From positions 992,001 to 1,056,000 of the forward strand of contig NZ_CP075185.1 of NCBI RefSeq assembly GCF_020510685.1: 64,000 bases of DNA, read 5' to 3'. The notes beneath the pieces are model-generated. The model ran no database searches. It was given only the letters and a program-made list of their open reading frames with translations, and was not told the DNA's origin. The position numbers were made by a program, and so were the translations under genes. This stretch comes from Dechloromonas denitrificans (GTDB lineage Bacteria > Pseudomonadota > Gammaproteobacteria > Burkholderiales > Rhodocyclaceae). Positions 13,654 to 28,457 of the stretch are shown one piece after another (positions within the stretch are counted from its first letter, which is position 1; every line of letters begins with the position of its first letter).

Positions 13654-13716
13654 GCTTTTATCGCCAGGGCGGCATATGCCGCCTTCGCTGCGGCCGATCT
13701 ACATAGCGGTACACAC

Positions 13717-13761
13717 TGTTGCAATCCGTTACTTGAGCGCTTGGGAGCGTACCGGTATCTT
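13717..13761 (+). promoter_or_regulatory. Promoter and upstream element of candidate sRNA copy 1
   Basis: Contains TTGAGC (13733-13738), a 17-base spacer and TATCTT (13756-13761). Directly upstream lies a direct repeat GTTGC/GTTAC with a 10-base period (13718-13732). The element is conserved at the second copy (28351-28395) although the spacer sequence differs, which marks the boxes as functional. Confidence 0.75.
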
Positions 13762-13767
13762 TAGCCC

Positions 13768-13867
13768 ATGCGCTGAACCCCAACAGCCTAGGCGGCCACC
13801 TCTCCCCCTCCCTGAATGGGCCGTCTTGAAAGCCTCGTATCCCCCCGGTACGAGGCTTTCTCCTTTT
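13768..13867 (+). ncRNA. Candidate small RNA, sibling copy 1 (C-rich loops)
   Basis: A transcript of about 100 bases is predicted from the promoter spacing. Three hairpins: GCTG/CAGC with loop AACCCCAA (13772-13787); GGCGGCC/GGCCGTC with a C-rich loop containing CCTCTCCCCCTCCC (13791-13825); and a terminator stem GAAAGCCTCGTA/TACGAGGCTTTC with a C6 loop (13828-13860). A second copy is at 28250-28344 on the other strand. Between the copies the terminator stem changes on both sides yet still pairs and keeps its C6 loop. C-rich loops are typical of sRNAs that pair with Shine-Dalgarno sites. No known family was recognised. The rest of the gap up to the tRNAs (13868-14026) shows nothing. Confidence 0.78.
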
Positions 13868-14026
13868 CGGACTTCGGGAAAGCCTTGAATGCCGGAAATG
13901 ACGATCGACGTATCGAAGCGGGTCGTCCGAAGTAAAAAAGCCAGCTACTCGGGAGCCAAGATCTGTTCGTGTATGGCCTCTCGATAGTCAGAGCAAAAAT
14001 AATTCATGTTTTGGTGCCTGGGGCTA

Positions 14027-14054
14027 TTGCCAAGGCCGTTCTGGCATTTATAAT
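14027..14054 (+). promoter_or_regulatory. Promoter of the tRNA-Asn/tRNA-Gly unit
   Basis: TTGCCA at 14027-14032, 16-base spacer and TATAAT at 14049-14054, 11 bases before tRNA-Asn. Confidence 0.75.
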
Positions 14055-14065
14055 GCGCGCCCTGT

Positions 14066-14141
14066 TCCTCGATAGCTCAGTTGGTAGAGCGCCGGACTGT
14101 TAATCCGTAGGTCCCTGGTTCGAGCCCAGGTCGGGGAGCCA
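14066..14141 (+). tRNA. tRNA-Asn (anticodon GTT)
   Basis: 76-base cloverleaf with acceptor TCCTCGA/TCGGGGA, D-arm AGCTCAGTTGGTAGAGC, anticodon loop CTGTTAA and encoded CCA. Confidence 0.97.
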
Positions 14142-14161
14142 GATATAGATGTTCTGAAAGG

Positions 14162-14237
14162 GCGGCAGTAGCTCAGTTGGTAGAGCGCAACCTTGCCAAG
14201 GTTGAGGTCGAGAGTTCGAGACTCTTCTGCCGCTCCA
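14162..14237 (+). tRNA. tRNA-Gly (anticodon GCC)
   Basis: 76-base cloverleaf with acceptor GCGGCAG/CTGCCGC, anticodon loop TTGCCAA in the stem CAACC/GGTTG and encoded CCA. It lies 20 bases after tRNA-Asn, probably in the same transcript. A short GC hairpin follows at 14250-14265. Confidence 0.97.
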
Positions 14238-14279
14238 GTTTTCAGATGACGTGCCGCCCGGCACGAATCCTTCGCGTTA

Positions 14280-14492
14280 CTACGCCATTCCCGCCAGCGC
14301 ATTGCGCAGTTCGCTGCCATCGTCTTCGCCGGCCGACCCCTTCATGTGCTGGCTTTCCACCTCGGTGTGATAACCGCAGTCGCGGAGTATTTCAGCCCAG
14401 TTTTCCGCATCATCGCGCGAAACATGCCACGGGCCTTTTTCGACAATCCGGGTGTCGCGACGATCAAAGCGCTTTATTACTACCCGATACAT
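14280..14492 (-). CDS. Small hypothetical protein
   Basis: A 70-residue charged soluble protein (MYRVVIKRFDRRDTRIVEKG...). A short GAAG precedes the ATG. The N-terminal half looks like an alpha/beta SPOR-like or DUF-type minidomain, with an aromatic/acidic patch (DDAENWAEILRDCGYHTEVES). No family was recognised with confidence. It lies between tRNA-Gly and the phasin gene, convergent with the tRNAs. Confidence 0.65.
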   Translation of the reverse strand: MYRVVIKRFDRRDTRIVEKGPWHVSRDDAENWAEILRDCGYHTEVESQHMKGSAGEDDGSELRNALAGMA

Positions 14493-14615
14493 CTTCAGCC
14501 TTTGCCATCGATACGAGTTGGTAGTTTAAAGCACGCCCCGACCATCCAACTTTCTTTCGGCAGAAAAATACGCAGATCGACCGGAAAACCGCGTCGGCAA
14601 TCGCGTCAAAACAAA

Positions 14616-14656
14616 ATTGTTGCGGTGCACCATTTTGTAAATGGTTCGGTTATACT
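14616..14656 (+). promoter_or_regulatory. Phasin promoter region with a GTTGCGGTGCAC motif
   Basis: ATTGTTGCGGTGCACCAT at 14616-14633 lies upstream of a TATACT -10 box (14651-14656). A nearly identical motif (17 of 18 bases) recurs at 15393-15410. In PHA-storing bacteria phasin genes are repressed by PhaR, which binds TGC-rich dyads at such promoters. This motif is a plausible PhaR operator, though that is an inference. Confidence 0.55.
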
Positions 14657-14700
14657 CGGCTCCGCACACAACTTGCCGATACACCTTTCCGGAGACTGAC

Positions 14701-15237
14701 ATGTCCATCAATACCGAACAATTCGCCGCTGCCAACAAAGCTACCGTTGATTCACTGTTGTCTGTTGCCAATACCGCACTGGCATCGGCCGAGCGTATCG
14801 CCGCTCTGAGCCTGAATACCGCTCGCGCTGCCCTGGAAGATTCCGTTTCCGGCGTCAAGGCCGTGATGAGCGCCAAGGATCCGAAGGAAGCGCTGGCCGC
14901 CCAGTCAGCCCTGGCCAAGCCGGCAGTTGAAAAAGCTGTCGATTACACGCGTTCCGTCTATGAAATTTCGGCGCAGACCCAACAGGAACTGGCCAAGATG
15001 GTCGAAGCCCAGTTCGGCGGTTTTCAGAAGACCGTTGCCGGCCTGTTCGAGCAAGCTGCCAAGTCCGCCCCGGCCGGTTCCGAAGGTGCTGTGACGGCCA
15101 TTCGTAGCGCAATTGCTGCGGCCAATTCGGCTTTCGGCAACATGAGCAGCACCGCCAAGCAATTCTCTGACGCCGCCCAGGCCAATGTTGCTGCGGCGAC
15201 CAAGGCCGCGACTGCCGCGACCAAGAAGAGCAAGTAA
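14701..15237 (+). CDS. phaP: Phasin family protein (PHA granule coat)
   Basis: A 178-residue Ala-rich helical protein of the phasin family, which coats polyhydroxyalkanoate granules and controls their size and number. The N-terminus (MSINTEQFAAANKATVDSLL) is typical, followed by long amphipathic helices and a lysine-rich end (AATAATKKSK). The start at 14701 is used because the preceding codons of the longer frame cover the promoter. It is a single-gene unit with its own terminator, and its upstream motif suggests PhaR-type control. Confidence 0.93.
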   Translation: MSINTEQFAAANKATVDSLLSVANTALASAERIAALSLNTARAALEDSVSGVKAVMSAKDPKEALAAQSALAKPAVEKAVDYTRSVYEISAQTQQELAKMVEAQFGGFQKTVAGLFEQAAKSAPAGSEGAVTAIRSAIAAANSAFGNMSSTAKQFSDAAQANVAAATKAATAATKKSK

Positions 15238-15265
15238 GTATTTTTCGGCCGCAGGCCGAAGCGAG

Positions 15266-15291
15266 GCCCCGCCTGTTGCGCGGGGCTTTTT
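15266..15291 (+). terminator. Terminator of the phasin gene
   Basis: GCCCCGC/GCGGGGC hairpin followed by five T residues. Confidence 0.9.
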
Positions 15292-15392
15292 GCTTTCCGG
15301 GGCCGCTGATTTGAGGCTAAGCATCAAGCGGATCGACTGACGCGTGGTGCAAAACCAACATTTGGCAAAGATCGTGTATCTGAAACAGAATA

Positions 15393-15425
15393 ATTGTTGC
15401 GGTGCACAATCGTTTCGGGCATACT
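15393..15425 (+). promoter_or_regulatory. Second phasin-type promoter driving a short transcript
   Basis: The motif ATTGTTGCGGTGCACAAT (15393-15410) repeats the phasin upstream element. It contains TTGCGG (15397-15402), which sits 17 bases before CATACT (15420-15425), a usable -35/-10 pair. A regulator bound here would cover the -35 box. Confidence 0.55.
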
Positions 15426-15431
15426 GAATCT

Positions 15432-15489
15432 GTCTCCTCCATCTCCTCCAAGAAATGGATTTAAGCCCGCCTAGTGCGGGCTTTTTTTT
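15432..15489 (+). ncRNA. Candidate short CU-rich RNA downstream of the phasin gene
   Basis: Between the promoter at 15393-15425 and a strong terminator there is no reading frame. The predicted RNA is about 58 bases. Its 5' part carries two tandem TCTCCTCC units that are complementary to Shine-Dalgarno sequences. Its 3' part is the terminator AAGCCCGC/GCGGGCTT (15463-15483) with eight T residues to 15489. It may be a PHA-responsive regulatory RNA, or the decayed leader of a lost second phasin gene. Confidence 0.5.
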
Positions 15490-15508
15490 GCGCCGCAGTC
15501 CGCTGGCT

Positions 15509-17143
15509 TCAAGACAGGGCGCTATCCAGCATGTGCTGCGCTTCGCTGACGATCGTTTGCAGGTGCTCGGTGCTGACGAAGCTTTCGGCGTAGAGCTTGT
15601 AGATATCCTCGGTGCCGGAAGGGCGTGCGGCGAACCAGCCGTTGGCCGTGCTGACTTTGAGGCCGCCGATCGGGGCATCGTTGCCCGGGGCGCGGGTCAG
15701 TTTTGCGACGATGGGATCGCCGGCAAGGGTTGGCGTGGTGATGCGCTCGCCGGTCAGTCGCTTGAAGGCTGCTTTCTGCGCGCTGCTGGCCGGCGCATCG
15801 ATCCGCACGTAGTACGGTGTACCGTGTCGGGCAGCCAGATCCTGGTAGTAGCGTCCGGGATCCTTGCCGCAGACGGCGGTGATTTCCGCCGCGAGCAGGC
15901 CGAGGATGATGCCATCCTTGTCGGTCGTCCAGGTCGTGCCGTCGCGCCGCAGGAAGCTGGCGCCGGCGCTTTCCTCGCCGCCAAAACAAAGACTGCCATC
16001 GAGCAGGCCGCCGGCAAACCATTTGAAACCGACCGGCACTTCCAGCATGCGGCGGCCGAGGCTCGCCACCACCCGGTCGATCAGGCCGCTCGACACCAGC
16101 GTCTTGCCGACCGCCGCGCGGGCCGACCATTCGGGGCGGTGGCCGAGCAAATAATGAATGGCCACGGCGAGGTAATGATTGGGGTTGAGCAAGCCGGTCG
16201 ATGGCGTGACGATACCGTGCCGATCAACGTCCGCATCGTTGCCCCAGGCGATATCGAACCGATCCTTGAGACTGACCAGGCCGGCCATGGCGTAGGGGCT
16301 GGAGCAGTCCATGCGGATCTTGCCGTCGTGGTCGAGCGTCATGAAGGCAAAGGTCGGGTCGACCTGCGGATTGACGATTTCGATATCCAGCCCGTAGCGC
16401 TCGGCAATCGGTTGCCAGTAGGCGACGGCTGCGCCGCCCAGCGGATCGACGCCGATTTTCAGGCCGGCCCGGCGGATCGCTTCCATGTCGATGACCTTGC
16501 CCAGGTCTTCGACATAGGGCGTCACGAAATCTTCGCGGATGCTGTGGCCGGCGGCCGCCGCTTCGGCATGGGGCAGCCGCTTTACGTCGCGGTTGCCGTC
16601 GGCCATCAAGGCATTGGCTCGGTGCTCGATCCAGCCGGTGACGTCGGTGTCGGCCGGGCCGCCATTCGGCGGGTTGTACTTGATGCCGCCATCGCGCGGC
16701 GGGTTGTGGGACGGCGTGATGACGATCCCGTCGGCAATGTCGCCGGGCTGGCTGGCGTTGTGGACGAGAATCGCCCGGGAGATCACCGGGGTCGGCGTAA
16801 AGCCATCGTCGGCCTGCCAGCGGGTCTGCACGCCATTGGCGGCCAGTACCTCAAGTGCATTGCGCTGGGCGGGGGCCGACAGGGCATGGGTATCCTTGCC
16901 GAGGAACAGCGGGCCGCGGATACCATGCCGGGCGCGGTAGTCGCATACCGCCTGGGTAATCGCCAGGATGTGTGCCTCGTTGAAGCTGCCATTCAGCGCG
17001 CTGCCGCGGTGCCCGCTGGTGCCGAAAGCCACCCGTTGACCGGCGTCGGCAAGGTCCGGAGCCTGGTGGTAAGCGGCCAGCAGCGCCGGGACGTCGATCA
17101 GAAAATCGGCGGGGGGCCGCTGGCCGGCCAGAGGATGCGTCAT
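15509..17143 (-). CDS. pgm: Phosphoglucomutase
   Basis: Interconverts glucose-6-phosphate and glucose-1-phosphate. The 544-residue protein matches the alpha-D-glucose-specific Pgm of E. coli in length. The phosphoserine loop is [11 protein letters not shown] near residue 145, metal binding is [14 protein letters not shown] ([11 protein letters not shown]), and GEESAGASF supplies the sugar loop. It is monocistronic, convergent with the short phasin-linked RNA. It links central carbon to the CDP-sugar operon at 0.8-9 kb and to glycogen. Confidence 0.96.
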
Positions 17144-17243
17144 TGTTATGCTCCCTGAGTCGCGAAAATTGCAGCTGCAATGTTACTGCGCAACCCTCGC
17201 GGCGTCAGGGTTCAAACAATGGATGAGGGCTGTTCGCCGGCCG

Positions 17244-18038
17244 TCAAACCTTGTTGAAGCCCAGGCGGTGCGACAAGTCCAGGGCGGCGGATCGCATTGC
17301 TTTGGCAAGCGGGCCATCCCATTCCGCATCGAACTCGCCCATCGAGCCGAGCGCGGTTATCGCCGCCACCATGCTTCCGGTATGGTCATAGACGGGGGCG
17401 CTGAAGCCGTTGATGCCCGGGGTGAGGCTGCCGGTGGCGCGTGAAATGCCCTGTTCGCGGATTTCGGTCAGGGTTTTTTCCAGTTGGCGGCGCACCGTCG
17501 TTACCGCTGTCTGGCTGGACTCGGCCGTTTGGCGCAGCTCTTCGTCAAGCATCTTCTTCAGGAACGGCGAGCGGAAAAAGGCCGAGAAGGCCCGTCCGGT
17601 GGCGGAGTTGCTCAGGGATAGTACAGTTCCCGGGCGCAGCGTGATGGTTACCGGGGATCCGGAGTCGACGATCCGCACGATGGTTGCACCGTGCGTTCCC
17701 CAGACAGCCAAGGCAACCGTTTCCTGAATTTCTTCGCACAGCGCTTCGAGGATCGGACCGGACAGGCGTACCGGATCGAGTCGCCCCAATCCGGACAGCC
17801 CGAGTTCCAGCGCGTAGGCGCCAAGATCATAGCGGCCGCTGCCGGCATCCTGTTCGACGATGCCGATCCGCATGAAGCTGACCATGTAGCGATGCGCCTT
17901 GGCGGCCGGCATGGCGGCGCCTTTGGCGATGTCGCGCAACATCATCGGGCGGTTGGTTGTGGCCAGGACATGCAACAGACGAAAACCGACTTCGATGGAC
18001 TGAATGCCTTGCCGATCACTTGCGACTTTGGTAACCAT
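17244..18038 (-). CDS. IclR-family transcriptional regulator
   Basis: A 264-residue regulator with an N-terminal winged helix (GFRLLHVLATTNRPMMLRDIAKGAAMPAAKAHRYMVSF is the region of helices 1-3, about residues 18-55) and a C-terminal IclR effector domain with ATGRAFSAF and a late SAPVYDHTG segment. The ATG at 18038 gives the usual short N-terminus; the longer open frame to 18266 is not supported. It is divergent from the ParA gene 95 bases away. No catabolic operon is next to it, so its target is unknown. Confidence 0.92.
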   Translation of the reverse strand: MVTKVASDRQGIQSIEVGFRLLHVLATTNRPMMLRDIAKGAAMPAAKAHRYMVSFMRIGIVEQDAGSGRYDLGAYALELGLSGLGRLDPVRLSGPILEALCEEIQETVALAVWGTHGATIVRIVDSGSPVTITLRPGTVLSLSNSATGRAFSAFFRSPFLKKMLDEELRQTAESSQTAVTTVRRQLEKTLTEIREQGISRATGSLTPGINGFSAPVYDHTGSMVAAITALGSMGEFDAEWDGPLAKAMRSAALDLSHRLGFNKV

Positions 18039-18133
18039 GATGAACAGTGCGAATGAAAGCCGACATTCTATGCATCTATGACGCGGTTGAGCGCGCCGAA
18101 TATAATGCGGCAGCAAATATATAGGGAGGTGGT

Positions 18134-18754
18134 ATGCGTGCAGTCCTAGTGGCGAATCCAAAAGGCGGGGCGGGCAAGACGACGCTGGCAACAAATTTGT
18201 CCGGTTATTTTGCCAATCAGGGCAAGAAAACCACCTTGTGCGATCTCGATCGCCAGCAGTCGGCAATTCGCTGGATGGCCTTTCGCGATCAGGCTCTGCC
18301 GCCGGTCACCGGCTACTTTGCCGGCAACCAGCTTGGCCTGAATTTGCCCAGGGAGGCCGACTGGGTGGTCGTCGATGCGCCGGCCGGGCTGCAAGGTTAC
18401 AAGCTGAGCGATTATTTGCGCAGCGTCGACAAGGTCGTGATTCCCCTGGTGCCCTCGGTGTTCGACATGGCGGCCACCGAGGATTTTCTCAACTCGATCC
18501 GCAATGAAATTCGCGGCCAACGCACCAAGGTGGGCATCGTCGCCATGCGCGTCGATCCGCGGACCAAGGCGGCCGGCATGCTCGAGGAGTTCCTGACGCA
18601 CTTCGATATTCCGATTGTTGCCTACCTTCGCAACACCCAGAACTACGTCAATGTCGCCGCCGCCGGGGCAACCGTGTTCGATCCGCCGCGCGCCAAACAC
18701 CGGCGCGATGTCGAGCAATGGGCATCGCTGACCGAGTGGCTGGAAACTGAATAG
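18134..18754 (+). CDS. Orphan ParA/MinD-type ATPase
   Basis: A 206-residue P-loop ATPase of the ParA family with deviant Walker A KGGAGKTT at residues 10-17, the DLDRQQSA switch region and a DAPAGLQG Walker B-like segment. Such small ParA proteins position plasmids, chromosomes or protein clusters on the nucleoid. No ParB or parS neighbour is visible, so it is an orphan whose cargo is unknown. A TATAAT at 18101-18106 and a GGGAGGTGG ribosome-binding site support the start. It ends 20 bases before the fMet promoter. Confidence 0.92.
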   Translation: MRAVLVANPKGGAGKTTLATNLSGYFANQGKKTTLCDLDRQQSAIRWMAFRDQALPPVTGYFAGNQLGLNLPREADWVVVDAPAGLQGYKLSDYLRSVDKVVIPLVPSVFDMAATEDFLNSIRNEIRGQRTKVGIVAMRVDPRTKAAGMLEEFLTHFDIPIVAYLRNTQNYVNVAAAGATVFDPPRAKHRRDVEQWASLTEWLETE

Positions 18755-18773
18755 CTGTTTTCGCCGATTGTTC

Positions 18774-18802
18774 TTGACAGGCCAGGGCCAGGTCCGGATA
18801 AT
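18774..18802 (+). promoter_or_regulatory. Strong promoter of initiator tRNA
   Basis: Perfect TTGACA (18774-18779), 17-base spacer and GATAAT (18797-18802). Confidence 0.9.
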
Positions 18803-18818
18803 CCGCCCCTCTGACGGA

Positions 18819-18894
18819 CGCGGGGTGGAGCAGTTGGCAGCTCGTCGGGCTCATAACCCGAAGGTCGCAGGTTCAAGTCCTGCCCCCGCAACCA
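18819..18894 (+). tRNA. Initiator tRNA-fMet (anticodon CAT)
   Basis: 76-base cloverleaf. The first base C opposes A at the end of the acceptor (unpaired 1-72), and the anticodon stem TCGGG/CCCGA has three G-C pairs next to the loop CTCATAA. Both are hallmarks of bacterial initiator tRNA. CCA is encoded. Its 3' end is the left copy of a 22-base imperfect direct repeat. Confidence 0.97.
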
Positions 18895-18902
18895 AGCATA
18901 TT

Positions 18903-18932
18903 AAGGGCTTAGCAAATTGCTAGGCCCTTTTG
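18903..18932 (+). terminator. Terminator after tRNA-fMet
   Basis: Long hairpin AAGGGCTTAGCA/TGCTAGGCCCTT with an AAT loop and trailing T residues. Confidence 0.85.
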
Positions 18933-18949
18933 CTTTTCAGGCTGCGCAG

Positions 18950-20446
18950 CTATTTCGTTATGGCACTCGCGAGGCGTTGCATGGCGGTTTCAATTTCATG
19001 ATCCGTTAAGGATGCGTAGCCCAGCAACCAGCCGAACTGTTTTTCCGGCCCCAGATATAACCGACTCAATCCGGCAAATTGCACACCTACGTCGGCTGCT
19101 TGCCGAATGGTTTTCGCTTCTGACCATCCCTGCTTCAAAAAACACGGTATCTGCATGCCGCCGGCTGGGCGCAGCGGAGTGACTATCCCGCCAAGATAGC
19201 GGTCGATGGCTTTCAGCATTACCTCCCGGCGACTGGCGTATAGCTTGCGCATGGCGCGAACATGAGAGCTGTAGTGCCCATCATCCATGAAGCGCGCCAA
19301 CGTCAATTGGAGAATCTGCGGTGTGTGCCCATCGAGGATGCTTCGTGCGCAGGTAAATGCGCTTACGAGCTGATGGGGTAGCGCCATGTATCCCATACGC
19401 AGGCCTGGATAGAGGGTCTTGCCGAAGGTGCCGACATAGAGCGTTCTTTGGTATTTGTCCAAGCCTTGAACGCATGCCGTTGGCGGGCCGTCGTAATGGA
19501 ATTCGCTGTCGTAGTCGTCTTCGAGAATCCACTTGCCGGTTTCAGCCGCCCAGTTGATCAAGTCAAGTCTGCGTTCCAGCGACAGGGTGGCTCCGGTGGG
19601 ATATTGGTGCGAAGGCGTCACGTAGACGCAATTGGCGCCGCTGCGATCCGCCCGTAGCAGATCCGTGCGTATGCCTTGCCCATCGACGTCGATGGGGACG
19701 ACCTTGGCTTCGGCGGATTCAAATGCCTTCTTTGCCCCAAAGTAGCCGGGGTTCTCCAGCATGATCGGCTTGCCGGCATCGACGAGCAACTGGGCGCACA
19801 GGAACAACGCTTGCCTGGTGCTGCTCAGCACCAATATCTGTTCGGCGGAAACCTTGGCGCCACGTTCGAGATTCAAGTAGGCGGCAATCTCCTCGCGCAG
19901 TGGCTCGGCTCCTTGAGGGTCTCCGTGCAGAAGCACCTGGCCGCGAAAGTCTTTCAATGCCTGGCGCTGCAGGCGCTCCCAGACATCGGTGGGAAAGGTG
20001 CGGGTTTCCGGCAAGCCCGTGGCAAAGGCTCGGCTGACCTTCTGATCGAACACTCCGCCGCTTTCGAGGATCATCCGGCCGCGCCGGCTCAGGCCGGCTC
20101 CCGGCTCTGTCACTTTGTGGTTTGGCTCTCGAAGCCTCAGGCGCCGACGCTCGATACCGCGCAACTCGGTGCCCATCGTCTCAGGTACATAGCTACCAGA
20201 ACCTTTCCGTCGGATGACGAAGCCGTCGCGCTGCAATTGCACATAGGCGTTTTCGACGGTGTCGCGGGCAACACCCAGCGATTTGGCGAGCGCACGTGTG
20301 GCAGGTAGCTTGACGCCCGGTCCCAGTGTGCCATCGAGTATCAGGGCGCGCAAGGCACGCTGGATACGTTGGTGCAGATCCAAACGCTGAAGGTCGGCGT
20401 CATTCAACCGGATTTTCAGCGTTTCAAGCTCAAGTGCGCTCTTCAT
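18950..20446 (-). CDS. MocR/PdxR-type regulator (GntR domain fused to aminotransferase)
   Basis: A 498-residue transcription factor: winged-helix GntR domain at about residues 20-90 (LPATRALAKSLGVARDTVENAY), then a fold-type I aminotransferase domain that senses PLP or an amino-acid adduct. The PLP lysine lies in GTFGKTLYPGLRMGY. The ATG at 20446 was chosen over a longer frame because upstream codons cover the operator region. It is divergent from the benE-like operon, which MocR proteins typically control. TGGTCTG boxes lie in the intergenic region, one next to its own start, which suggests autoregulation. Confidence 0.93.
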   Translation of the reverse strand: MKSALELETLKIRLNDADLQRLDLHQRIQRALRALILDGTLGPGVKLPATRALAKSLGVARDTVENAYVQLQRDGFVIRRKGSGSYVPETMGTELRGIERRRLRLREPNHKVTEPGAGLSRRGRMILESGGVFDQKVSRAFATGLPETRTFPTDVWERLQRQALKDFRGQVLLHGDPQGAEPLREEIAAYLNLERGAKVSAEQILVLSSTRQALFLCAQLLVDAGKPIMLENPGYFGAKKAFESAEAKVVPIDVDGQGIRTDLLRADRSGANCVYVTPSHQYPTGATLSLERRLDLINWAAETGKWILEDDYDSEFHYDGPPTACVQGLDKYQRTLYVGTFGKTLYPGLRMGYMALPHQLVSAFTCARSILDGHTPQILQLTLARFMDDGHYSSHVRAMRKLYASRREVMLKAIDRYLGGIVTPLRPAGGMQIPCFLKQGWSEAKTIRQAADVGVQFAGLSRLYLGPEKQFGWLLGYASLTDHEIETAMQRLASAITK

Positions 20447-20447
20447 G

Positions 20448-20607
20448 TGGTCTGTTTTTGTTGTTGATATTTGAATCAAATTGCAGACCATTTTAACTCC
20501 GGGCTCCACCCGTTTGCAGCATTCGTGGCTGACGAAACCGGGTGTTGCTTTTCGTGTCAGCCGGCTCAGAGCAATGCATGGTCAGGGCATCAATCAAAAG
20601 TGGTCTG
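20448..20607. promoter_or_regulatory. Three TGGTCTG boxes between MocR gene and its operon
   Basis: TGGTCTG at 20448-20454 (+), its reverse complement CAGACCA at 20484-20490 and TGGTCTG at 20601-20607 (+). The last is preceded by AAAAG, making AAAAGTGGTCTG. Known PdxR-type MocR sites have the form AAAGTGGWCTA, so these boxes are good candidates for the MocR operators in this divergent promoter region. Confidence 0.65.
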
Positions 20608-20707
20608 CCAAATGCAAACAAAGTGTCATAGCAAGGCAGTCCATTGCGGCGGTATAAAACGACTTTCGCTGCTCGGCAGTTCGTCCTTCAGAGGGAATCA
20701 TCAAGTC

Positions 20708-21958
20708 ATGTCTACTTCAATCTCTCCGCCATCCATTCACCTTCGCGATCTCACCCATCCGATCATGGCCGGCCTCATCTCGGTCATCGTCAACTACGGC
20801 GGTACCTTCATCCTGGTTTTTCAAGCCGCCAAAGTGGCAGGCCTTGGCCCGGAGCTGACGGCTTCATGGATCTGGTCGATTTCGATTGGCGTCGGGGTGA
20901 CGGGACTTTTTCTCAGCTGGATTACGCGCGAGCCGATCATCACGGCCTGGTCCACGCCGGCGGCGGCCTTCCTGGTCACGGCGCTGGCCGCCACGCCCTA
21001 TGCCGAGGCGGTGGGCGCCTACCTGATCTCGGCCGCCGCCTTCGTGGTCTTGGGGGCGTCGGGCTACTTCGAGAAGCTCATCCGACTGATTCCCCCTGGT
21101 GTGGCCGCCGGGCTGCTGGCGGGGATTCTGTTGCAGTTTGGTATCGGCGCTTTCGGCGGGGTGAACATCGAGCCGCTACTGGCGGGTTTGCTCATCGTCG
21201 CCTATGTCGTGCTCAAGCGGTTCAGCGCACGCTATGCCGTGGTGGGCATTCTTTTACTGGGCCTGGCGTTTCTCCTCTCCCAGGGACGCATCGATCTGTC
21301 GGGCCTGCGATTGCAGCTTGCCGCTCCGCTCTTCACGATGCCGGTGTTTTCGCTCAACGCCTTGCTCAGCGTGGCGTTGCCGCTGTTCCTGATAACCCTG
21401 AGCGGGCAATACATGCCCGGCATGCTGGTGCTGCGCAACGACGGGTTCAGGACCAGCGCCAATCCGATCGTCACCGTCACCGGGCTGGGCTCGCTGCTGA
21501 TGGCGCCGTTCGGCTCTCACGCCTTCAACATCGCCGCGATCACGGCGGCTATCTGCACCGGCAAGGAGGCGCACGAAGACCCGGCCAAGCGCTGGGTCGC
21601 CGGCATCGCGGCAGGCATCTTCTACATCCTCGTCGGCGTCTTTGGCGTGACGCTCGTCGCGGTCTTCATGGCCTTCCCGGCGACCTTCATCAGCACGCTG
21701 GCCGGCCTCGCCCTCTTGGGCACGATCGGCGGCAGCCTGGCCAGCGCCATGGCTGACCCGAAATCCCGCGAAGCAGCCCTGATCACTTTCCTGGCGGCCG
21801 CTGCCAACATCAAGCTGTTCGGTATTGGCGGAGCCTTCTGGGGGCTGTTGATCGGCCTCGTCGCTTACGCCGTGCTCAATGGCCGTCTGCCGCGCGCTCC
21901 CAAGGAGGCCATCAATACCCTCTGTGCACCGGCGATCAACAAGGGGGCGGCCAACTGA
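20708..21958 (+). CDS. BenE-family inner-membrane transporter
   Basis: A 416-residue, very hydrophobic protein with about 12 transmembrane segments, of the BenE (benzoate/H+ symporter-like) family within the nucleobase-transporter superfamily. Signature stretches include NYGGTFILVFQAAKVAGLG and PFGSHAFNIAAITAAIC. The start at 20708 (MSTSISPPS) follows a promoter region with MocR-type boxes; longer frames upstream are not credible. No benzoate genes are near. Being first in a PLP-enzyme operon, it more likely imports the amino acid, vitamer or inhibitor to which that operon responds. Confidence 0.88.
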   Translation: MSTSISPPSIHLRDLTHPIMAGLISVIVNYGGTFILVFQAAKVAGLGPELTASWIWSISIGVGVTGLFLSWITREPIITAWSTPAAAFLVTALAATPYAEAVGAYLISAAAFVVLGASGYFEKLIRLIPPGVAAGLLAGILLQFGIGAFGGVNIEPLLAGLLIVAYVVLKRFSARYAVVGILLLGLAFLLSQGRIDLSGLRLQLAAPLFTMPVFSLNALLSVALPLFLITLSGQYMPGMLVLRNDGFRTSANPIVTVTGLGSLLMAPFGSHAFNIAAITAAICTGKEAHEDPAKRWVAGIAAGIFYILVGVFGVTLVAVFMAFPATFISTLAGLALLGTIGGSLASAMADPKSREAALITFLAAAANIKLFGIGGAFWGLLIGLVAYAVLNGRLPRAPKEAINTLCAPAINKGAAN

Positions 21959-22803
21959 TGCGAAAAGGATCCGACGATGGCGAAACACGGCCGGTTTCAT
22001 CATCCGGCACGCCGCCCCGCCAAGATGAGCTTGGCCGCTATCCCAGGCCTTCCTCGCTCGAAGACTTCCGGCGCAACCTGGCCGCCGTCCGGGCCCGCAT
22101 CGACGCCGCTTGCCGGCGCGTCGGGCGCGACCCGGCCAGCGTGCGTTTGTTGCCGGTAAGCAAGACCGTGGACGAAGGGCAAATCCGCCTCTCTTATGCC
22201 GCCGGATGTCGGTTGCTCGGAGAAAATAAGGTCCAGGAAGCCCATCGCAAGTGGCAAGCGATGGCCGACTTGATTGACCTCCGCTGGTCGGTGATCGGGC
22301 ACCTGCAAACCAACAAGGCCAAGTGGGTCGCACGCTTTGCCGCTGAGTTCCAGGCACTCGACAGCTTGCGCGTCGCCGAGGCGCTGGAGCGCCGCCTGCA
22401 GATCGAGGGGCGCTCGCTGGATGTGTTCGTGCAAGTCAATACCTCCGGTGAGGCCAGCAAATACGGTCTGCCGCCTGCTGACGTACAAGCTTTCCTGCAG
22501 GCGCTACCGGGTTTTCCGGCGCTGCGTGTGCGCGGGCTGATGACGCTGGCGTTGCTCTCCGGCGAGGCCGAGCGGGTACGCCAGTGCTTCATCCGGCTGC
22601 GCACCCTGCGTGATCAGCTGCGCCAAAGCGCCCCCGTCGGTACCTGCCTGGACGAACTGTCCATGGGCATGTCTGGCGATTTCGAGATTGCCATCGAGGA
22701 AGGAGCCACCGTGGTGCGCGTCGGCCAGGCCATATACGGCGCCCGCGCTTTACCGAACAGCCATTTCTGGCCCAGCGAAACCAATACCCGGGAGTCCCCT
22801 TGA
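21958..22803 (+). CDS. YggS/PROSC-type PLP-binding protein
   Basis: A 281-residue member of the PLP homeostasis protein family (alanine racemase-like barrel without catalysis). The PLP lysine is in LLPVSKTV near residue 68. The phosphate-binding SMGMSGDFEIAIEEGAT and RVGQAIYG motifs are at the C-terminus. It carries about 30 extra N-terminal residues compared with E. coli YggS; a later start is possible. Its ATG overlaps the benE stop (TGATG). The family buffers free PLP and affects amino-acid pools, which fits an operon of PLP enzymes. Confidence 0.92.
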   Translation: MRKGSDDGETRPVSSSGTPPRQDELGRYPRPSSLEDFRRNLAAVRARIDAACRRVGRDPASVRLLPVSKTVDEGQIRLSYAAGCRLLGENKVQEAHRKWQAMADLIDLRWSVIGHLQTNKAKWVARFAAEFQALDSLRVAEALERRLQIEGRSLDVFVQVNTSGEASKYGLPPADVQAFLQALPGFPALRVRGLMTLALLSGEAERVRQCFIRLRTLRDQLRQSAPVGTCLDELSMGMSGDFEIAIEEGATVVRVGQAIYGARALPNSHFWPSETNTRESP

Positions 22804-23522
22804 TGAAAACCGCCATTGCCATCCGCCACCTGCATTTTGAAGACCTCGGCACGCTCGAGCCGCTACTCAAAGCGCGTGGCTACGATGTGCAGTATGTCGA
22901 TGCCACGCAGGACGATCTGACCGCCCTCGACGTGCAGGCCGCCGACCTGTTGGTAGTGCTGGGCGGACCCATCGGAGCCTTCGATGACGATGTCTATCCC
23001 TTTCTCATCGACGAACTGGCACTGGTCTGCCGTCGCCTGGAGAGTCGGCGCCCCCTGCTGGGTATCTGCTTGGGGGCACAACTGATCGCCCGGGCGCTGG
23101 GGGCCAGGGTTTATGCCTTGGGCGTCAAGGAAATCGGTTTTGGCCGACTGGCGCTGACCCCGGAAGGCGAGAGCTCCCCGCTGGTCGCGCTGGGCGACAC
23201 CCCGGTTATGCACTGGCACGGCGATCAGTTCGATATCCCGCCTGGCGCCGTCCGGCTGGCCGGTACGGCGATCGGCGTCAATCAGGCATTTGCGCGAGGC
23301 AGCCAGGTGCTCGGTCTGCAATTTCATCTCGAGGCGGACACGCGGCAAATCGAGCGCTGGCTGGTCGGCCATGCCAGCGAACTGGCCCAAGTGGGTATCG
23401 ATCCGCGCACCTTGCGGGCCGAGGCGCGGCACCTGGGCACCAGCTTGTCCTCAGCGGCCCGTGCAGTGTTCAGCCGTTGGCTCGATGGACTCGACACGAT
23501 ATTGCCAGGGAGTCGGTCGTGA
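22803..23522 (+). CDS. Class I glutamine amidotransferase
   Basis: A 239-residue stand-alone glutaminase/amidotransferase. The nucleophile is in GICLGAQL near residue 90, and the catalytic His-Glu pair is in LGLQFHLE near 175. It resembles GuaA-type amidotransferase proteins of unknown substrate rather than PdxT, which is shorter. Its start overlaps the yggS-like stop (TGATG). It would supply or hydrolyse an amide or gamma-glutamyl bond in the operon's pathway. Confidence 0.9.
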   Translation: MKTAIAIRHLHFEDLGTLEPLLKARGYDVQYVDATQDDLTALDVQAADLLVVLGGPIGAFDDDVYPFLIDELALVCRRLESRRPLLGICLGAQLIARALGARVYALGVKEIGFGRLALTPEGESSPLVALGDTPVMHWHGDQFDIPPGAVRLAGTAIGVNQAFARGSQVLGLQFHLEADTRQIERWLVGHASELAQVGIDPRTLRAEARHLGTSLSSAARAVFSRWLDGLDTILPGSRS

Positions 23523-23627
23523 CAGCGCCGTTCTCGCTCGCTGGACCGATATGACTCTGGCTAAACGCCCTGAGCTGCGGCTAGCCATCGCCCCCGGTAT
23601 CAACCCCACTTGAGGATACACACACCC

Positions 23628-24848
23628 ATGCCCCATCCCCCATCCCACCTGATGCAGGCCTATGCCCGCCAGCCGGTTTCTTTTGTTCGCGGACGTGGCG
23701 CACGTCTGTGGGACGCCCAAGGTATCGAGTACCTCGATGCCATCGCCGGCGTGGCGGTGACCAATCTTGGCCATGCCCATCCCGAGATTGCCGCCGCCAT
23801 CGCCGAACAGGCCGGGCTGCTCCTGCACACCTCCAATATGTTCGGCATCGCCTGGCAGGAACGCTTGGGCGAGCGGCTGTGTTCGCTGTCCGGTATGCAA
23901 AGAGCTTTCTTCTGCAATTCAGGCGCGGAGGCCAACGAAACCGCGCTCAAACTGGCACGCCTGCACGGCAACCGCAAACAGGTGGCGCAGCCCCAGGTGC
24001 TGGTGATGGAAAACAGCTTCCACGGACGCACTCTGGCGACACTCGCCGCCACCGGCAATCCGGCCGTGCAGCGCGGTTTTGAGCCGCTGATGCCGGGTTT
24101 CCTGCGGGTGCCTTACGACAACATGGCGGCGGTCCGCCAGGCTGCCGAGCAGACGCCCGGCATCGTCGCCGTGTTGGTCGAGCCGGTGCAGGGCGAAGGC
24201 GGCGTGCGGGTCGCCTCCACCGACTATTTGCGCGAGCTGCGGACGCTGTGCGACCAGTTCGACTGGCTGTTGATGATCGACGAAGTGCAGACCGGCATGG
24301 GGCGTACCGGCACCTGGTTCGGCTACCAGCATGCCGGCGTGATGCCGGACGTCATCACGCTGGCAAAGGGGCTGGGCAATGGCTTTCCCATCGGTGCCTG
24401 TCTGGCACGCGGACCGGCGGCAGAACTGTTTTCGCCCGGCCGCCACGGGTCAACCTTTGGCGGTAATCCGCTGGCCTGCCGGGTTGGCTGCACCGTGCTC
24501 GACATCATGGAGAGCGACGCTATCCCGGCCCGTGCTGCCACATTGGGCCGCCGACTGCTGGCCGGTCTTCAGGATGCGCTGAGCGGCCATCCCAACGTGA
24601 TTGCCGTCCGCGGTCTGGGCCTGATGGCCGGAATCGAGCTGGATCGGGGCTGCGGGGAGTTGGTTGGGCGCGCCTTGAACGAACAGCAGCTGTTAATCAC
24701 CGTGACCCGCGAGACCACCATCCGACTACTGCCGCCGCTGGTGTGCAGCGAAGCGCAGATCGACGACATCGTGGCGCGGGTGGCGCGTCTTTTGTCTCCA
24801 ACACAGTTAAACCACAGGACCACATCATCATGTACGCCACTTCAGTGA
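23628..24848 (+). CDS. Class III aminotransferase, acetylornithine aminotransferase-like
   Basis: A 406-residue fold-type I PLP enzyme similar to ArgD. The glycine-rich cofactor loop is [16 protein letters not shown], the aspartate is in [14 protein letters not shown] and the PLP lysine is in [14 protein letters not shown]. Substrate may be acetylornithine or another omega-amino acid. The ATG at 23628 is used; a GAGGA lies 12 bases upstream. Its last 19 bases overlap the glyA start. The operon setting with no other arg gene argues for a specialised, non-arginine role. Confidence 0.88.
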
Positions 24849-26095
24849 ACCTTGCCGAATTCGACGCCGAGCTGTCCGAGGCTGTCCAGAATGAAGAGCG
24901 CCGCCAAGAAGACCACGCCGAGCTGATCGCCTCCGAGAATTATGTCAGCCCGCTGGTCATGTCGATCCAGAACTCGGTCTTTACCAACAAGTATGCCGAG
25001 GGCTATCCGGGCAAACGCTACTACAGCGGCTGCGAGTATGTTGATGTTGCCGAGCGCCTGGCGATCGAGCGTGTCAAGAGGCTGTTCGACTGCGACTACG
25101 CCAATGTCCAGCCCCATGCCGGAGCTCAGGCCAATGCCGCCGTCTTTCTGGCGCTGGTCAAGCCCGGCGACACCGTGATGGGAATGAACTTGGCTCAGGG
25201 AGGCCATCTGACTCATGGCAATCCGTCCAACTTCTCCGGCCGGCACTACCGGATTGTTCCCTATGGCCTCGACCCCGAGACCGGCTTGATAGACTACGAC
25301 GAGATGGAGCGCATCGCGCTGGAGACCCGGCCCAAAATGCTCATCGGCGGTTTCTCCGCCTACTCCCGGCGCAAAGACTGGGCACGCATGCGTGCCATCG
25401 CTGACAAGGTGGGGGCCATCTTTTGGGTGGACATGGCCCACGTCGCTGGCCTGGTGGCCGCCGGCGAGTATCCGAATCCGTTGCCGCATGCCCATGTGGT
25501 GACCAGCACTACTCACAAGACGCTGCGTGGGCCACGTGGCGGCATCATTCTGTCCAAGGGCCAAGGCGAAGAATTCCACAAGCAGCTCAACTCAGCGGTC
25601 TTCCCCGGTGTCCAGGGCGGTCCGCTGATGCACGTCATCGCTGCCAAGGCGCTTGCCTTCAAGGAGGCGCTGGTGCCCGAATTCAAGAGCTACCAGCGGC
25701 AGGTGGTGATCAATGCGCGTGCCATGGCCGCCGTGCTCCAGCAACGCGGCTACAAAATCGTCTCCGGGGGGACCGACAACCACATGATGCTGATCGACCT
25801 CTCCGACAAGCCTTACACCGGCAAGGACGCGGATGCCGCCCTGAGCGACGCCTGCATTACCGCGAACAAGAATTCGGTACCCAACGATCGGCGCTCGCCC
25901 TTCGTGACCTCTGGGCTGCGCATCGGCACTCCGGCCGTCACAACCCGTGGTTTCGGCGCGGCGGAATGCGAGCAGTTGGCGGCTTGTTTGTGCGATGTGC
26001 TGGATGCGTTGGAGGCCGGAACCAGTAGTCGGGTGATATGCCGAGTTCGGGAACAGGTGGTGGCTTTGTGCCGCCGCCATCCGGTGTATCGATAA
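24830..26095 (+). CDS. glyA: Serine hydroxymethyltransferase
   Basis: Transfers the serine hydroxymethyl group to tetrahydrofolate, making glycine. The 421-residue protein shows the SHMT landmarks: [37 protein letters not shown], the PLP lysine in [14 protein letters not shown] and the folate-side [14 protein letters not shown]. It is the last gene of the operon and overlaps the aminotransferase. It sits in an island-like setting away from housekeeping folate genes, so it may be a second copy dedicated to the operon's pathway or resistant to an inhibitor. Confidence 0.95.
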
Positions 26096-26227
26096 GCCGG
26101 TTGATCTGGTGAGGCGTGGCCAGGCCGAGGCCGATATGACGCGGCGTGGTGGGCTGGCAGTGTTTTTCAATACGGCCTATCGGGAGCGTCTGAATGGAAA
26201 TCGGTATAGGACACGTAAATTTAATGC

Positions 26228-26249
26228 CAAGTCCTGCCCCTCCAACCAA
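26228..26249 (+). repeat. Imperfect copy of the tRNA-fMet 3' end (candidate attR)
   Basis: CAAGTCCTGCCCC, two differing bases, then CAACCAA; it matches 18874-18895 at 20 of 22 positions. The stretch 26096-26408 holds this repeat and no convincing gene; a 38-codon open frame runs through it (26136-26252). Confidence 0.6.
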
Positions 26250-26408
26250 TAGCATCAACGAACGATCAACTGCTTGGCGGCATTGGTCCATTTTTGTTTT
26301 TGGGCGGGAAATGTGCTGCGACATATTTTGTCCACGAGCGTGGCCTTCGGTCGACTGCCCATCCTCGGTCTACAATGCGGAAAACTCCTTTACCGAGGGC
26401 TTATCCGA

Positions 26409-26789
26409 ATGACCCATTATTTGTGGCCGGTGATCGTCGCCTCTTCCCTGGTCTTGTCAGCCTGCGGAACGGTGCCCAACGGCGAATCCAAAACACCGTC
26501 GTCGTCCCGCACTGGCCAGCTCGAACTGGCGCTGGCCAGCGGCACCTACCGCTGCGAGCAGAATGTGCGCATCCAGGTTCGGCGCGAACTTCTTGCCGGG
26601 GTGAATAGCCGGATCGATATCGACTGGAACGGCAACAGCCACCGCCTCGAGCGCGACCCCTCGTACTCCGGCCTGCCCCGTTTCGCCGACGCCGCCAGCG
26701 GCCTGGTGTGGATCGACTTGCCCTGGAAGAGCTTGTTGCTCGATGGAAAAACCAACAAGCCGCTGGTGAACGAGTGCCGACCGACATGA
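26409..26789 (+). CDS. Small lipoprotein of unknown function
   Basis: A 126-residue protein with a type II signal peptide whose lipobox LSAC puts the lipidated cysteine at about residue 19. The mature part contains RCEQNVRIQVRRE and a second cysteine near the C-terminus (NECRPT), which may pair with the first in the mature domain. This looks like the small MliC-like beta domain of lipoprotein lysozyme inhibitors, but the match is weak. It is monocistronic with its own terminator. Confidence 0.8.
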   Translation: MTHYLWPVIVASSLVLSACGTVPNGESKTPSSSRTGQLELALASGTYRCEQNVRIQVRRELLAGVNSRIDIDWNGNSHRLERDPSYSGLPRFADAASGLVWIDLPWKSLLLDGKTNKPLVNECRPT

Positions 26790-26790
26790 A

Positions 26791-26818
26791 GAAAGGGCCA
26801 GCATTCGCTGGCCCTTTC
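26791..26818. terminator. Terminator after the lipoprotein gene
   Basis: GAAAGGGCCAGC/GCTGGCCCTTTC hairpin with loop ATTC. It could serve both strands, as it lies between convergent genes. Confidence 0.85.
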
Positions 26819-26893
26819 CGCTCTGCTTTTGCCTATCCGGAAAAGCCGCCGACCATCTTGGCCGGAGCAGCCTGACCGGCTGGCGCGAGGCGC

Positions 26894-27238
26894 TTACTTC
26901 GTGGTCGGCGTCGGGGTTGCGGCCGGCTTGGCTTCCGTCTTCACTTCAGCGGCGGCCTCGTGCTTTTCAGCTTTGTGGCTCTTTGCCTTGGCTTTCGCAT
27001 GCTTCTCGACCGGCTTGGCGGCCTCGGCCTTCGGGGCTTCGCTCTTGGTCACTTCGCTCTTGGCCGGTTCGGCAGCCTTGGCGGCTTCTACCTTTTTCTC
27101 GCTGGCGGCCGGGGCCGGTGCAGCCAGCTTGGCGGTCGGTGCGGCTTGCGGGGCCGGCGCTGCGATGCCCTGGGCGAAGGAGGCAGAAGCGAAACCGGCG
27201 GCAACGGTCAGAGCGACGATAATTTTGGAAACTTGCAT
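26894..27238 (-). CDS. Secreted Ala/Lys/Pro/Glu-rich low-complexity protein
   Basis: A 114-residue protein with a clear Sec signal peptide (cut after ASFAQ or ASA near residue 22). The rest is almost only A, P, K, E and T with KAEA/PAKSE-like repeats, so it should be extended and unstructured in the periplasm. An AGGAG site precedes the ATG at 27238. Such proteins are common in betaproteobacteria, and function is unknown; a cell-wall binding or envelope-spacing role is a guess. Confidence 0.8.
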   Translation of the reverse strand: MQVSKIIVALTVAAGFASASFAQGIAAPAPQAAPTAKLAAPAPAASEKKVEAAKAAEPAKSEVTKSEAPKAEAAKPVEKHAKAKAKSHKAEKHEAAAEVKTEAKPAATPTPTTK

Positions 27239-27398
27239 TTTGAATCTCCTGAATGGGTAGGTTGTTTGTTCGGTCTTCGGTGCTGACAACTATTTGCAGC
27301 GCCTTGTAGCGAATAACGCAAGGGCTTACCCAGGGGATGTCAGTTCACATGTAATGCTGTGTATCGCTTGGTGACCGAATTGTTTCCAATTCTCGACA

Positions 27399-28193
27399 TC
27401 AGGCTTGATGCCCGCCGGCAAAATCGCGGGCCGCGTCGAGAAAGTCGAGCAGGATTGGATTGCAATCGAGCAGAAGCGGGCAGCGGGTTTGGTGAAACTC
27501 CGGGTGCCATTGCAGTCCGAGCACGTAGGAGCTGCCCTCCAGCCGGATGGCCTCGATCACGCCGTCGCCGGCGCTTTGCGCCTCGATGCTCAGGCCTTTG
27601 CCGAGAACCCGGATGGCCTGGTGATGGACGGAAACCACCCGGCCACCGCTCTGTTCCGGATAGAGCCTGGCCAAACGGCTGTCCTTGTTCCATTCGACGG
27701 CATGGGCGAACTTGTCAAAGGCGGCGTGGACATGCGGGCCGGGATGGTCGCACTGCGTTTCGATGTCCTGGTACAGGGAGCCGCCAAGCGCCACGTTGAT
27801 TAGCTGGGCGCCTCGGCAGATGCCGAGGACCGGCTTGCCGGCCGCCATGAACGCATTGAGCAGTGCCATCTGGTAGGTGTCGTGCAGGTAATCGCCTGAC
27901 CAGTCGGGGCATCGTGGCTCCTCGCCGTAGCATTCCGGGCTGATGTCGGCGCCGCCCTGCAACACCAGACCATCCAGGTAGTCGGAATAATCGGAGAGCC
28001 GGATGCGGTCGCGGAAATCGCTGCCATCGACCCCGACCGACGGAATGATGAAAACCGTCGCCTGGTGTGACATCACCCAATGGGCCAGGGATTGTTCGAG
28101 GTATTGCAGCGATTTCGAATGCAGCCCGGTGGCCCCGGGCAGGGGGTGGTAAATGTTGGCCGACAGGCCAATGCGCAAGGGGCGAGGACTCAT
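27399..28193 (-). CDS. Gamma-glutamyl-GABA hydrolase-like amidotransferase (peptidase C26)
   Basis: A 264-residue class I glutamine amidotransferase-fold hydrolase of the PuuD/C26 family. The nucleophile elbow is GICRGAQLINV near residue 125, and the His-Glu pair is in LGLQWHPEF near 225. An LQGGADISPE motif precedes them. PuuD cleaves gamma-glutamyl-GABA in putrescine breakdown; here no puu gene is adjacent, so the substrate is open. It follows on the minus strand after the second small RNA copy. Confidence 0.9.
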   Translation of the reverse strand: MSPRPLRIGLSANIYHPLPGATGLHSKSLQYLEQSLAHWVMSHQATVFIIPSVGVDGSDFRDRIRLSDYSDYLDGLVLQGGADISPECYGEEPRCPDWSGDYLHDTYQMALLNAFMAAGKPVLGICRGAQLINVALGGSLYQDIETQCDHPGPHVHAAFDKFAHAVEWNKDSRLARLYPEQSGGRVVSVHHQAIRVLGKGLSIEAQSAGDGVIEAIRLEGSSYVLGLQWHPEFHQTRCPLLLDCNPILLDFLDAARDFAGGHQA

Positions 28194-28249
28194 GGTGACT
28201 GTACGGTGTGCTGCTGTTCAGTGGCAGAGGCCTGAATGGTAGCGTGAAC

Positions 28250-28344
28250 AGGAGAAAGCCCCGCTAGGGGGGAGCGGGGCTTTCAAGACGGCCGATTCAG
28301 GGAGGGGGAGAGGTGGCCGCCTAGGCTGTTGGGGTTCAGCGCAT
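28250..28344 (-). ncRNA. Candidate small RNA, sibling copy 2 (C-rich loops)
   Basis: An inverted copy of the element at 13768-13867. The first 60 bases are nearly identical (5' hairpin with loop AACCCCAA and second hairpin GGCGGCC/GGCCGTC with the CCTCTCCCCCTCCC loop). The terminator stem differs: GAAAGCCCCGCT pairs with AGCGGGGCTTTC around CCCCCC. Both sides have changed together and the C6 loop is kept. The T-tract is weaker here (CTTTCTCCTG). It fills the gap between the Crp-GGDEF gene and the C26 amidotransferase gene. Confidence 0.78.
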
Positions 28345-28350
28345 GTGTCC

Positions 28351-28395
28351 AAGATACGGCCAGCCGGCCGCTATCTCAAGTAACGGATTGCAACA
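28351..28395 (-). promoter_or_regulatory. Promoter and upstream element of sRNA copy 2
   Basis: On the minus strand: the same GTTGC/GTTAC direct repeat, TTGAGA (28379-28374), 17-base spacer of different sequence and TATCTT (28356-28351). This matches the promoter at 13717-13761 box for box. Confidence 0.75.
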
Positions 28396-28457
28396 GCGCG
28401 TATCGGTTTGTTCGTTGCCGTGCGTTGGGCCGGCGACGGTTGGCGGCCCTGGCGTAT

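Follow-up and report, generated by a model that had tools for sequence, protein, structure and literature searches.

Two inverted units of Dechloromonas denitrificans belong to a genus-wide family of structured RNAs with C-rich loops and a probable role at Shine-Dalgarno sites

Introduction

What is encoded by two near-identical units of about 100 nt that lie inverted to each other in the chromosome of Dechloromonas denitrificans? Both fall within a stretch of 64,000 nt (assembly GCF_020510685.1, contig NZ_CP075185.1, positions 992,001 to 1,056,000; hereafter the window), in which a sequence-only reading had given each unit a promoter, three hairpins and a terminator, had recognized no matching named family, and had proposed pairing with the Shine-Dalgarno sites of many mRNAs. 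Rhodocyclales bacteria are of importance in denitrification and perchlorate reduction, and the literature searched showed very little on small RNAs (sRNAs) in this order, to which the present analysis adds a well-supported family. We consider it likely (probability about 0.7) that both units are genes for a trans-acting sRNA of ∼100 nt that covers Shine-Dalgarno sites, belongs to a genus-wide family and has a regulator of its own.

Results

Two units with the same fold and promoter layout

A repeat finder run on the window paired positions 13755-13845 with 28267-28357 (91 nt, 90% complementary) and, as a second inverted arm in the promoter region, 13701-13737 with 28375-28411 (37 nt, 86%). The units themselves, termed copies 1 and 2, folded into three like hairpins with free energies of -41.7 and -40.7 kcal/mol and z scores of -6.17 and -5.73 respectively; for each, none of 200 shuffled sequences was equally stable. 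Loops 1 and 2 are identical between the copies, while the terminator stems differ (CTCGTA/TACGAG versus CCCGCT/AGCGGG). Repeat finder and fold thus bear out the layout first described, down to the loops AACCCCAA, CCTCTCCCCCTCCC and six C and both terminator stems. The features are as follows, with scores from the covariance model R1 described below.

13768-13868 (+): sRNA copy 1 (R1, 101.1 bits, model seed; fold)
13772-13787 (+): hairpin 1 of copy 1, loop AACCCCAA (fold)
13790-13826 (+): hairpin 2 of copy 1, loop CCTCTCCCCCTCCC, candidate anti-Shine-Dalgarno seed (fold, start-region test)
13828-13860 (+): hairpin 3 of copy 1, terminator, C-rich loop of six C (fold)
13733-13761 (+): promoter of copy 1, TTGAGC, 17 bp, TATCTT (sequence; -10 conserved in homologues)
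13708-13737 (+): putative operator of copy 1, GGTAC-N5-GTTGC-N5-GTTAC, pentamers 10 bp apart, reaching into the -35 box
28246-28344 (-): sRNA copy 2 (R1, 94.8 bits, model seed; fold)
28325-28340 (-): hairpin 1 of copy 2 (fold)
28286-28322 (-): hairpin 2 of copy 2, C-rich loop as in copy 1 (fold)
28254-28284 (-): hairpin 3 of copy 2, terminator, C-rich loop (fold)
28351-28379 (-): promoter of copy 2, TTGAGA, 17 bp, TATCTT (sequence; consensus promoter scan)
28373-28404 (-): putative operator of copy 2, GATAC-N5-GTTGC-N5-GTTAC (sequence, genome pattern scan)

The start of copy 1 was placed by its distance from the promoter and by the shared 5′ end AUGCGCUGA, and the 3′ end of copy 2, at 28246, by the RNA model. 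Behind its terminator copy 1 carries the tail UCUCCUUUUC, a weak, interrupted U-tract of a type that is commonest among the homologues as well. The RNA model found these two copies only in the genome (4.62 Mb, one contig), and the third row of a BLAST search was a 20-base match (E = 0.115). Over promoter and RNA the copies are 82.6% identical; since copy 2 is marginally closer to a copy from another species (locus L130, 83.9%) than to copy 1, the duplication was probably not recent. (Labels beginning with L and G are our handles for loci and genomes.)

The stems covary across a genus-wide family

A BLAST-type search for relatives returned members of Dechloromonas/Azonexus, here called the genus (NCBI lineage Rhodocyclales, Azonexaceae), and one other genus (G228). 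Eight sequences, including both window copies, were aligned with MAFFT (alignment A3) and gave the covariance model R1, which at E ≤ 0.01 matched 65 of the 76 genus genomes, the window's own included, and 44 of the 51 of good quality. When R1 was run on wider draws, 52 of 395 genomes of the taxonomic family matched (20 of them from the genus), as did 13 of 399 genomes of the order at E ≤ 0.001 (six from the genus, one, G187, from the family and six from other families); stricter search filters lose some weak matches. Counting as strong those copies that score at least 45 bits, which dropped 18 weaker rows, we found strong copies in 63 genus genomes: one copy in 47, two in 14, three in one and five in another. 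The sibling pair seen in the window is therefore no trait of the family, as 47 of these 63 genomes have a single strong copy.

In 71 distinct sequences, 97.3% of the cells at paired positions could pair, and two-sided changes occurred in 15 of the 25 base pairs. None of 500 shuffles reached any of these measures, and sliding one partner gave at most 46.9% paired; alignment A4 yielded a like result. Covariation was found in seven of the eight pairs of helix 2 and in eight of the 13 of helix 3; helix 1 hardly varies, so that covariation neither supports nor contradicts it. Because the 71-sequence alignment was fitted to the model, it is biased in favour of the structure; in the MAFFT alignment of eight sequences, made without such fitting, seven of the 25 pairs had two-sided changes. 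The length of loop 2 takes consecutive values, such as 15 to 24 nt, which counts against a coding function. With stems that covary and loops 2 and 3 that stay C-rich in nearly all homologues, the covariation search proposed in the sequence-only reading came out in favour of a structured noncoding RNA.

RNA and promoter region find each other

Promoter spacers of copies 1 and 2 have the same length and differ in sequence; a simple consensus promoter scan passed copy 2 and did not pass copy 1. Upstream of the RNA, the core GTYGCA-N4-GTTACTTG was present in 44 of 48 distinct copies found by the RNA model (leaving aside the distant group and any copies that the pattern scan retrieved). With the model seeds left out, the core occurred in 36 of 40 copies, and 33 of the 40 had a -10-like box in the position expected. 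Among the four remaining non-seed copies, two look like near-misses (L073, L084) and two are without the core (L069, L077).

R1 holds no promoter, and a search pattern made of operator and 5′ end holds no stem and no loop 2. Applied to a collection of 84,980 species, this pattern retrieved 53 stretches with 54 sites, and all 54 matched the RNA model. RNA and promoter/operator thus find each other independently across the family, in keeping with the earlier claim that the RNA has its own promoter. The operator counts come from copies found by the RNA model; the base profile of pattern-selected sites is uninformative at the core and the 5′ end. The records were named Dechloromonas, Azonexus, Rhodocyclaceae, Rhodocyclales, Azonexaceae and Ca. 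Propionivibrio aalborgensis, and further ones were bins labelled only Betaproteobacteria or Proteobacteria, with one Gammaproteobacteria. Outside the genus, operator, promoter and fold occurred together in Ca. Propionivibrio aalborgensis (L094) and in G228 (L035).

In the window's genome, a scan for the operator with up to two mismatches matched only the two copies (0 and 1 mismatch), against three chance matches for the reversed control; a slightly different pattern gave one extra site with two mismatches, and two in its control. There is no other close operator in this genome, and looser sites are possible. Such near-uniqueness makes a search for the regulator direct. Tandem direct repeats of 10 bp suit OmpR-family response regulators; going by this form, the sole basis of the assignment, a protein of that family would bind the operator.

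Other matches beyond the genus that were inspected were of two kinds. The six order matches from other families (L161-L166) consist of the terminator hairpin and unrelated sequence, with neither a C-rich loop 2 nor the operator, and were rejected. Eleven matches from the same taxonomic family (L038-L047, ten loci of 38-48 bits, and L160, 37.8 bits) combine a C-rich hairpin with a terminator, and ten of the 11 lie after a micro-ORF (open reading frame); with the operator core in none of the ten tested, they were not accepted as members and are treated as a separate, perhaps convergent group. In ten of these loci, all from other genera (L038-L045, L047 and L160), a micro-ORF with a KFLxDSxRYL-like C-terminal core stands directly before the C-rich-loop hairpin and terminator, an arrangement suggestive of a small mRNA that carries a C-rich sRNA at its 3′ end. 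The second copy in G587 (L069:1501-1596, 45 bits) has neither the operator nor the usual promoter and is probably a decaying paralogue.

Loop 2 prefers translation starts

Loop composition was counted over 70 distinct homologues, a loop being called C-rich if it contained CTCC, TCCC or CCCC. Loop 2 consists of 66% C and 4.7% G and has a C-rich motif in 69 of the 70; loop 3 is 71% C and has one in all 70. Loop 1 most often reads ACCAGACAT (27 homologues) and is C-rich in 17 homologues, so that the initial statement that all loops are C-rich holds for both window copies and not for the family.

To compute binding near starts, we took 464 kb of this genome, made up of the window and 20 further 20-kb stretches, and called 335 genes in it by a simple procedure. 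Loop 2 bound the 22 nt before starts with a mean of -6.32 kcal/mol versus -5.34 kcal/mol in gene interiors (p = 3e-4), and neither 40 shuffled loops nor 60 random genomic 20-mers included one as extreme. Among the homologues, 57 of 58 distinct loop 2 sequences favoured starts, and 54 did so more strongly than their own shuffles (mean of eight); for loop 3 (26 distinct), 23 favoured starts and 18 beat their shuffles. The preference amounted to -1.0 kcal/mol for the window's loop 2 and to -0.58 kcal/mol on average for its homologues, compared with -0.84 for the 9-nt anti-Shine-Dalgarno sequence of 16S rRNA and -0.35 for a 14-nt 16S tail. The base order of loop 2, beyond its composition, gives the start preference, and the data support short Shine-Dalgarno pairing rather than a few long duplexes.

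Discussion

A proposed mode of action and what weighs against it

The fold, its covariation, the conservation of promoter and operator, the loop composition and the start preference of loop 2 are direct results; transcription, a regulator, targets and repression are what we infer from them. We propose that a sigma-70-type promoter would be switched by a regulator on tandem half-sites 10 bp apart that overlap the -35 box, and that the RNA would end at the third hairpin. The exposed CU-rich loop 2 would then block ribosome entry on several mRNAs by pairing with their G-rich Shine-Dalgarno sites, with the terminator loop perhaps as a second contact. Hfq, whose gene is present in the window's genome, may help. 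Because loops 1 and 2 are the same and the operators alike, copies 1 and 2 probably share their targets and have additive effects.

Several results weigh against this proposal. Among the 335 gene calls, neither loop 1 nor loop 3 of the window copy had a start preference (p = 0.56 and p = 1); the suggestion of Shine-Dalgarno pairing thus stands, by computation, for loop 2 and its homologues and finds no support in these two. The homologous loops are phylogenetically dependent and were all tested on the starts of one genome, with simple gene calls. In a smaller run confined to the window, with 48 starts, loop 2 could not be separated from its shuffles, and near-perfect complements of loop 2 were not enriched genome-wide (17 sites with up to two mismatches, two of them the sRNA genes, versus 31 for the reversed control). 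The weak U-tract of the tail counts against a strong Hfq 3′ site, and the third, GATAC-like half-site is less well kept, with TAC in place in 21 of 36.

Other readings of the conserved units

The neighbourhood of the family raises another reading. Downstream of the sRNA, 35 of 70 site sequences carry an RNase H-like gene in the same orientation; one of the 70 is a truncated duplicate, and some are undecidable so near a contig end. Three of the gene's products score above the PF00075 cut-off, and seven aligned sequences share invariant D, E, D, H and D residues, which we take to be the RNase HI positions. The gene is present in 51 of the 76 genus genomes (E ≤ 1e-10) and lies no more than 1 kb downstream of a strong copy in 36 of these, with gaps of at most 83 nt in 35. 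The hairpins and terminator could accordingly be a cis-acting leader that attenuates this gene, the orphan copies being relics. Against this, 15 of the 51 genomes have no such neighbour at ≥ 45 bits, and in the window's genome the gene stands by itself at G000:C1:1850829, more than 800 kb from both copies, which nevertheless keep promoter and fold. Some of the intergenic stretches also seem, by eye, to have a -10-like box immediately upstream of the ATG, which would be the gene's own promoter. We therefore regard a leader as quite unlikely, and read the adjacency plainly as the inherited neighbourhood of one old locus. Still less credible, to our minds, is a single regulatory cassette of Dechloromonas/Azonexus in which the variable, basic-tailed enzyme would act with, or be controlled by, the adjacent sRNA and orphan copies would work with it in trans.

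Were the hairpins instead a decoy that binds a protein rather than pairs with mRNAs, one would understand why the window copies have several hairpins with like loops and why the composition of loop 2 is constant while its sequence varies. Loop 1 is mostly unlike loops 2 and 3, however, and the start preference depends on the base order of loop 2 and not on composition alone; moreover, we know of no protein in this group that reads C-rich loops in such a way (no search was made), which also counts against a decoy. We hold it to be unlikely. If the units were a small mobile or repetitive DNA element with a fortuitous fold, this would account for copies in different gene neighbourhoods and for up to five of them per genome, but hardly for the low copy number, the constant promoter spacing and the compensatory stem changes; copy 2 had no match in phage records, and the copy 1 RNA had none in plasmid records (its two hits involved the query's tRNA end). 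This last explanation seems to us highly improbable.

Relation to known C-rich sRNAs

No Rfam family reached its gathering score at either unit, in agreement with the initial failure to recognize one. As candidates for copy 1, 6C, ar14, anti-hemB and CcsR1 were all below threshold and were rejected: 6C (RF01066) scored 31.1 bits where gathering requires 47, and CcsR1 (RF02791) 10.6 bits versus 65.3. RF02278 (gathering 50 bits) had no match at either unit at gathering, and none for copy 1 at E ≤ 10. Of 17 loci searched, just two, L032 (44.2 bits) and L036 (42.3 bits), gave a 6C match at E ≤ 0.1. CcsR RNAs are placed after DUF1127 genes; to judge by the family name, they have the CCUCCUCCC-type motif in common with the Dechloromonas sRNA.

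RF02278 comprises the double-hairpin RNAs ncS03/05/27/62 of Burkholderia and S17 of Bordetella, whose CU-rich unpaired stretches cover ribosome-binding sites, as predicted in Burkholderia and tested on one target for S17; Burkholderia has three to five homologues per genome, and three of four share an upstream motif (PMC5688073, PMC11722255). These RNAs have two hairpins and the Dechloromonas sRNA has three, while both are betaproteobacterial with CU-rich unpaired stretches. Listeria LhrC1-5 are five copies of 111-114 nt with three redundant CU-rich sites, one in the terminator loop, and depend on the two-component system LisRK (PMC4132741). Several CU-rich loops including that of the terminator are likewise present here (loop 2, 69/70; loop 3, 70/70). 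LhrC differs, however, in its phylum and in having established targets and regulator, and hairpin 1 of the Dechloromonas sRNA is mostly not C-rich; the two are likened by description.

6C RNA (mycobacterial B11) pairs through two C-rich loops with G-rich 5′ untranslated regions (PMC10470900). Two hairpins with C-rich loops are found here as well (loops 2 and 3), but the scores of 31-44 bits are below threshold, and hairpin 1 is without counterpart in the matched part. NmsRA and NmsRB of Neisseria are siblings, 70% identical, with two anti-Shine-Dalgarno motifs (PMC5362039). The trait of an anti-Shine-Dalgarno sRNA, a start preference beyond composition, holds here for loop 2 and not for window loops 1 and 3. 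NmsRA/NmsRB are in tandem and tied to RelA, whereas the window copies are inverted, and this likeness, too, is one of description.

Because no Rfam model matched at threshold and because LhrC, 6C/B11, NmsR and the double-hairpin RNAs work in the manner proposed, we class the Dechloromonas sRNA as a new family of a known kind. No publication title in the literature searched concerned it. The comparison points to separate origins of CU-rich, Shine-Dalgarno-directed sRNAs in different lineages.

Neighbouring genes and further observations

The RNase H-like protein is itself variable, mostly with a basic, RRRKKK-like start, as at L136:5271-5783 (-) and 34 further sites. In the window, copy 1 is flanked by a Rieske-domain gene on one side and tRNA-Asn on the other, and a GGDEF gene with a Crp-type domain lies upstream of copy 2. 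Relatives of three window genes recur at other sites, namely of the phasin gene (14641-15237) near L080, of a 577-aa ORF (10434-12167) upstream of L076 and of the ORF at 18950-20509 near L139. GGDEF-type matches to 28458-31091 in L087, L091, L135 and others (27-40% identity) perhaps reflect merely a common domain. The sites fall into 21 neighbour groups, a figure inflated by spurious frames among the mechanical ORFs used.

About 1.6 kb from copy 1, at 15431-15489 (+), the window holds an RF02278 match of 56.9 bits. The 17-mer TTGTTGCGGTGCACNAT occurs exactly at 14617-14633 and 15394-15410 (+), before the phasin gene and this RF02278 sRNA; a third match has three mismatches and is at chance level. 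From its placement, TTGTTGCGGTGCACNAT is possibly a shared regulator site, and it resembles what we take to be the sites of the polyhydroxyalkanoate (PHA) regulator PhaR.

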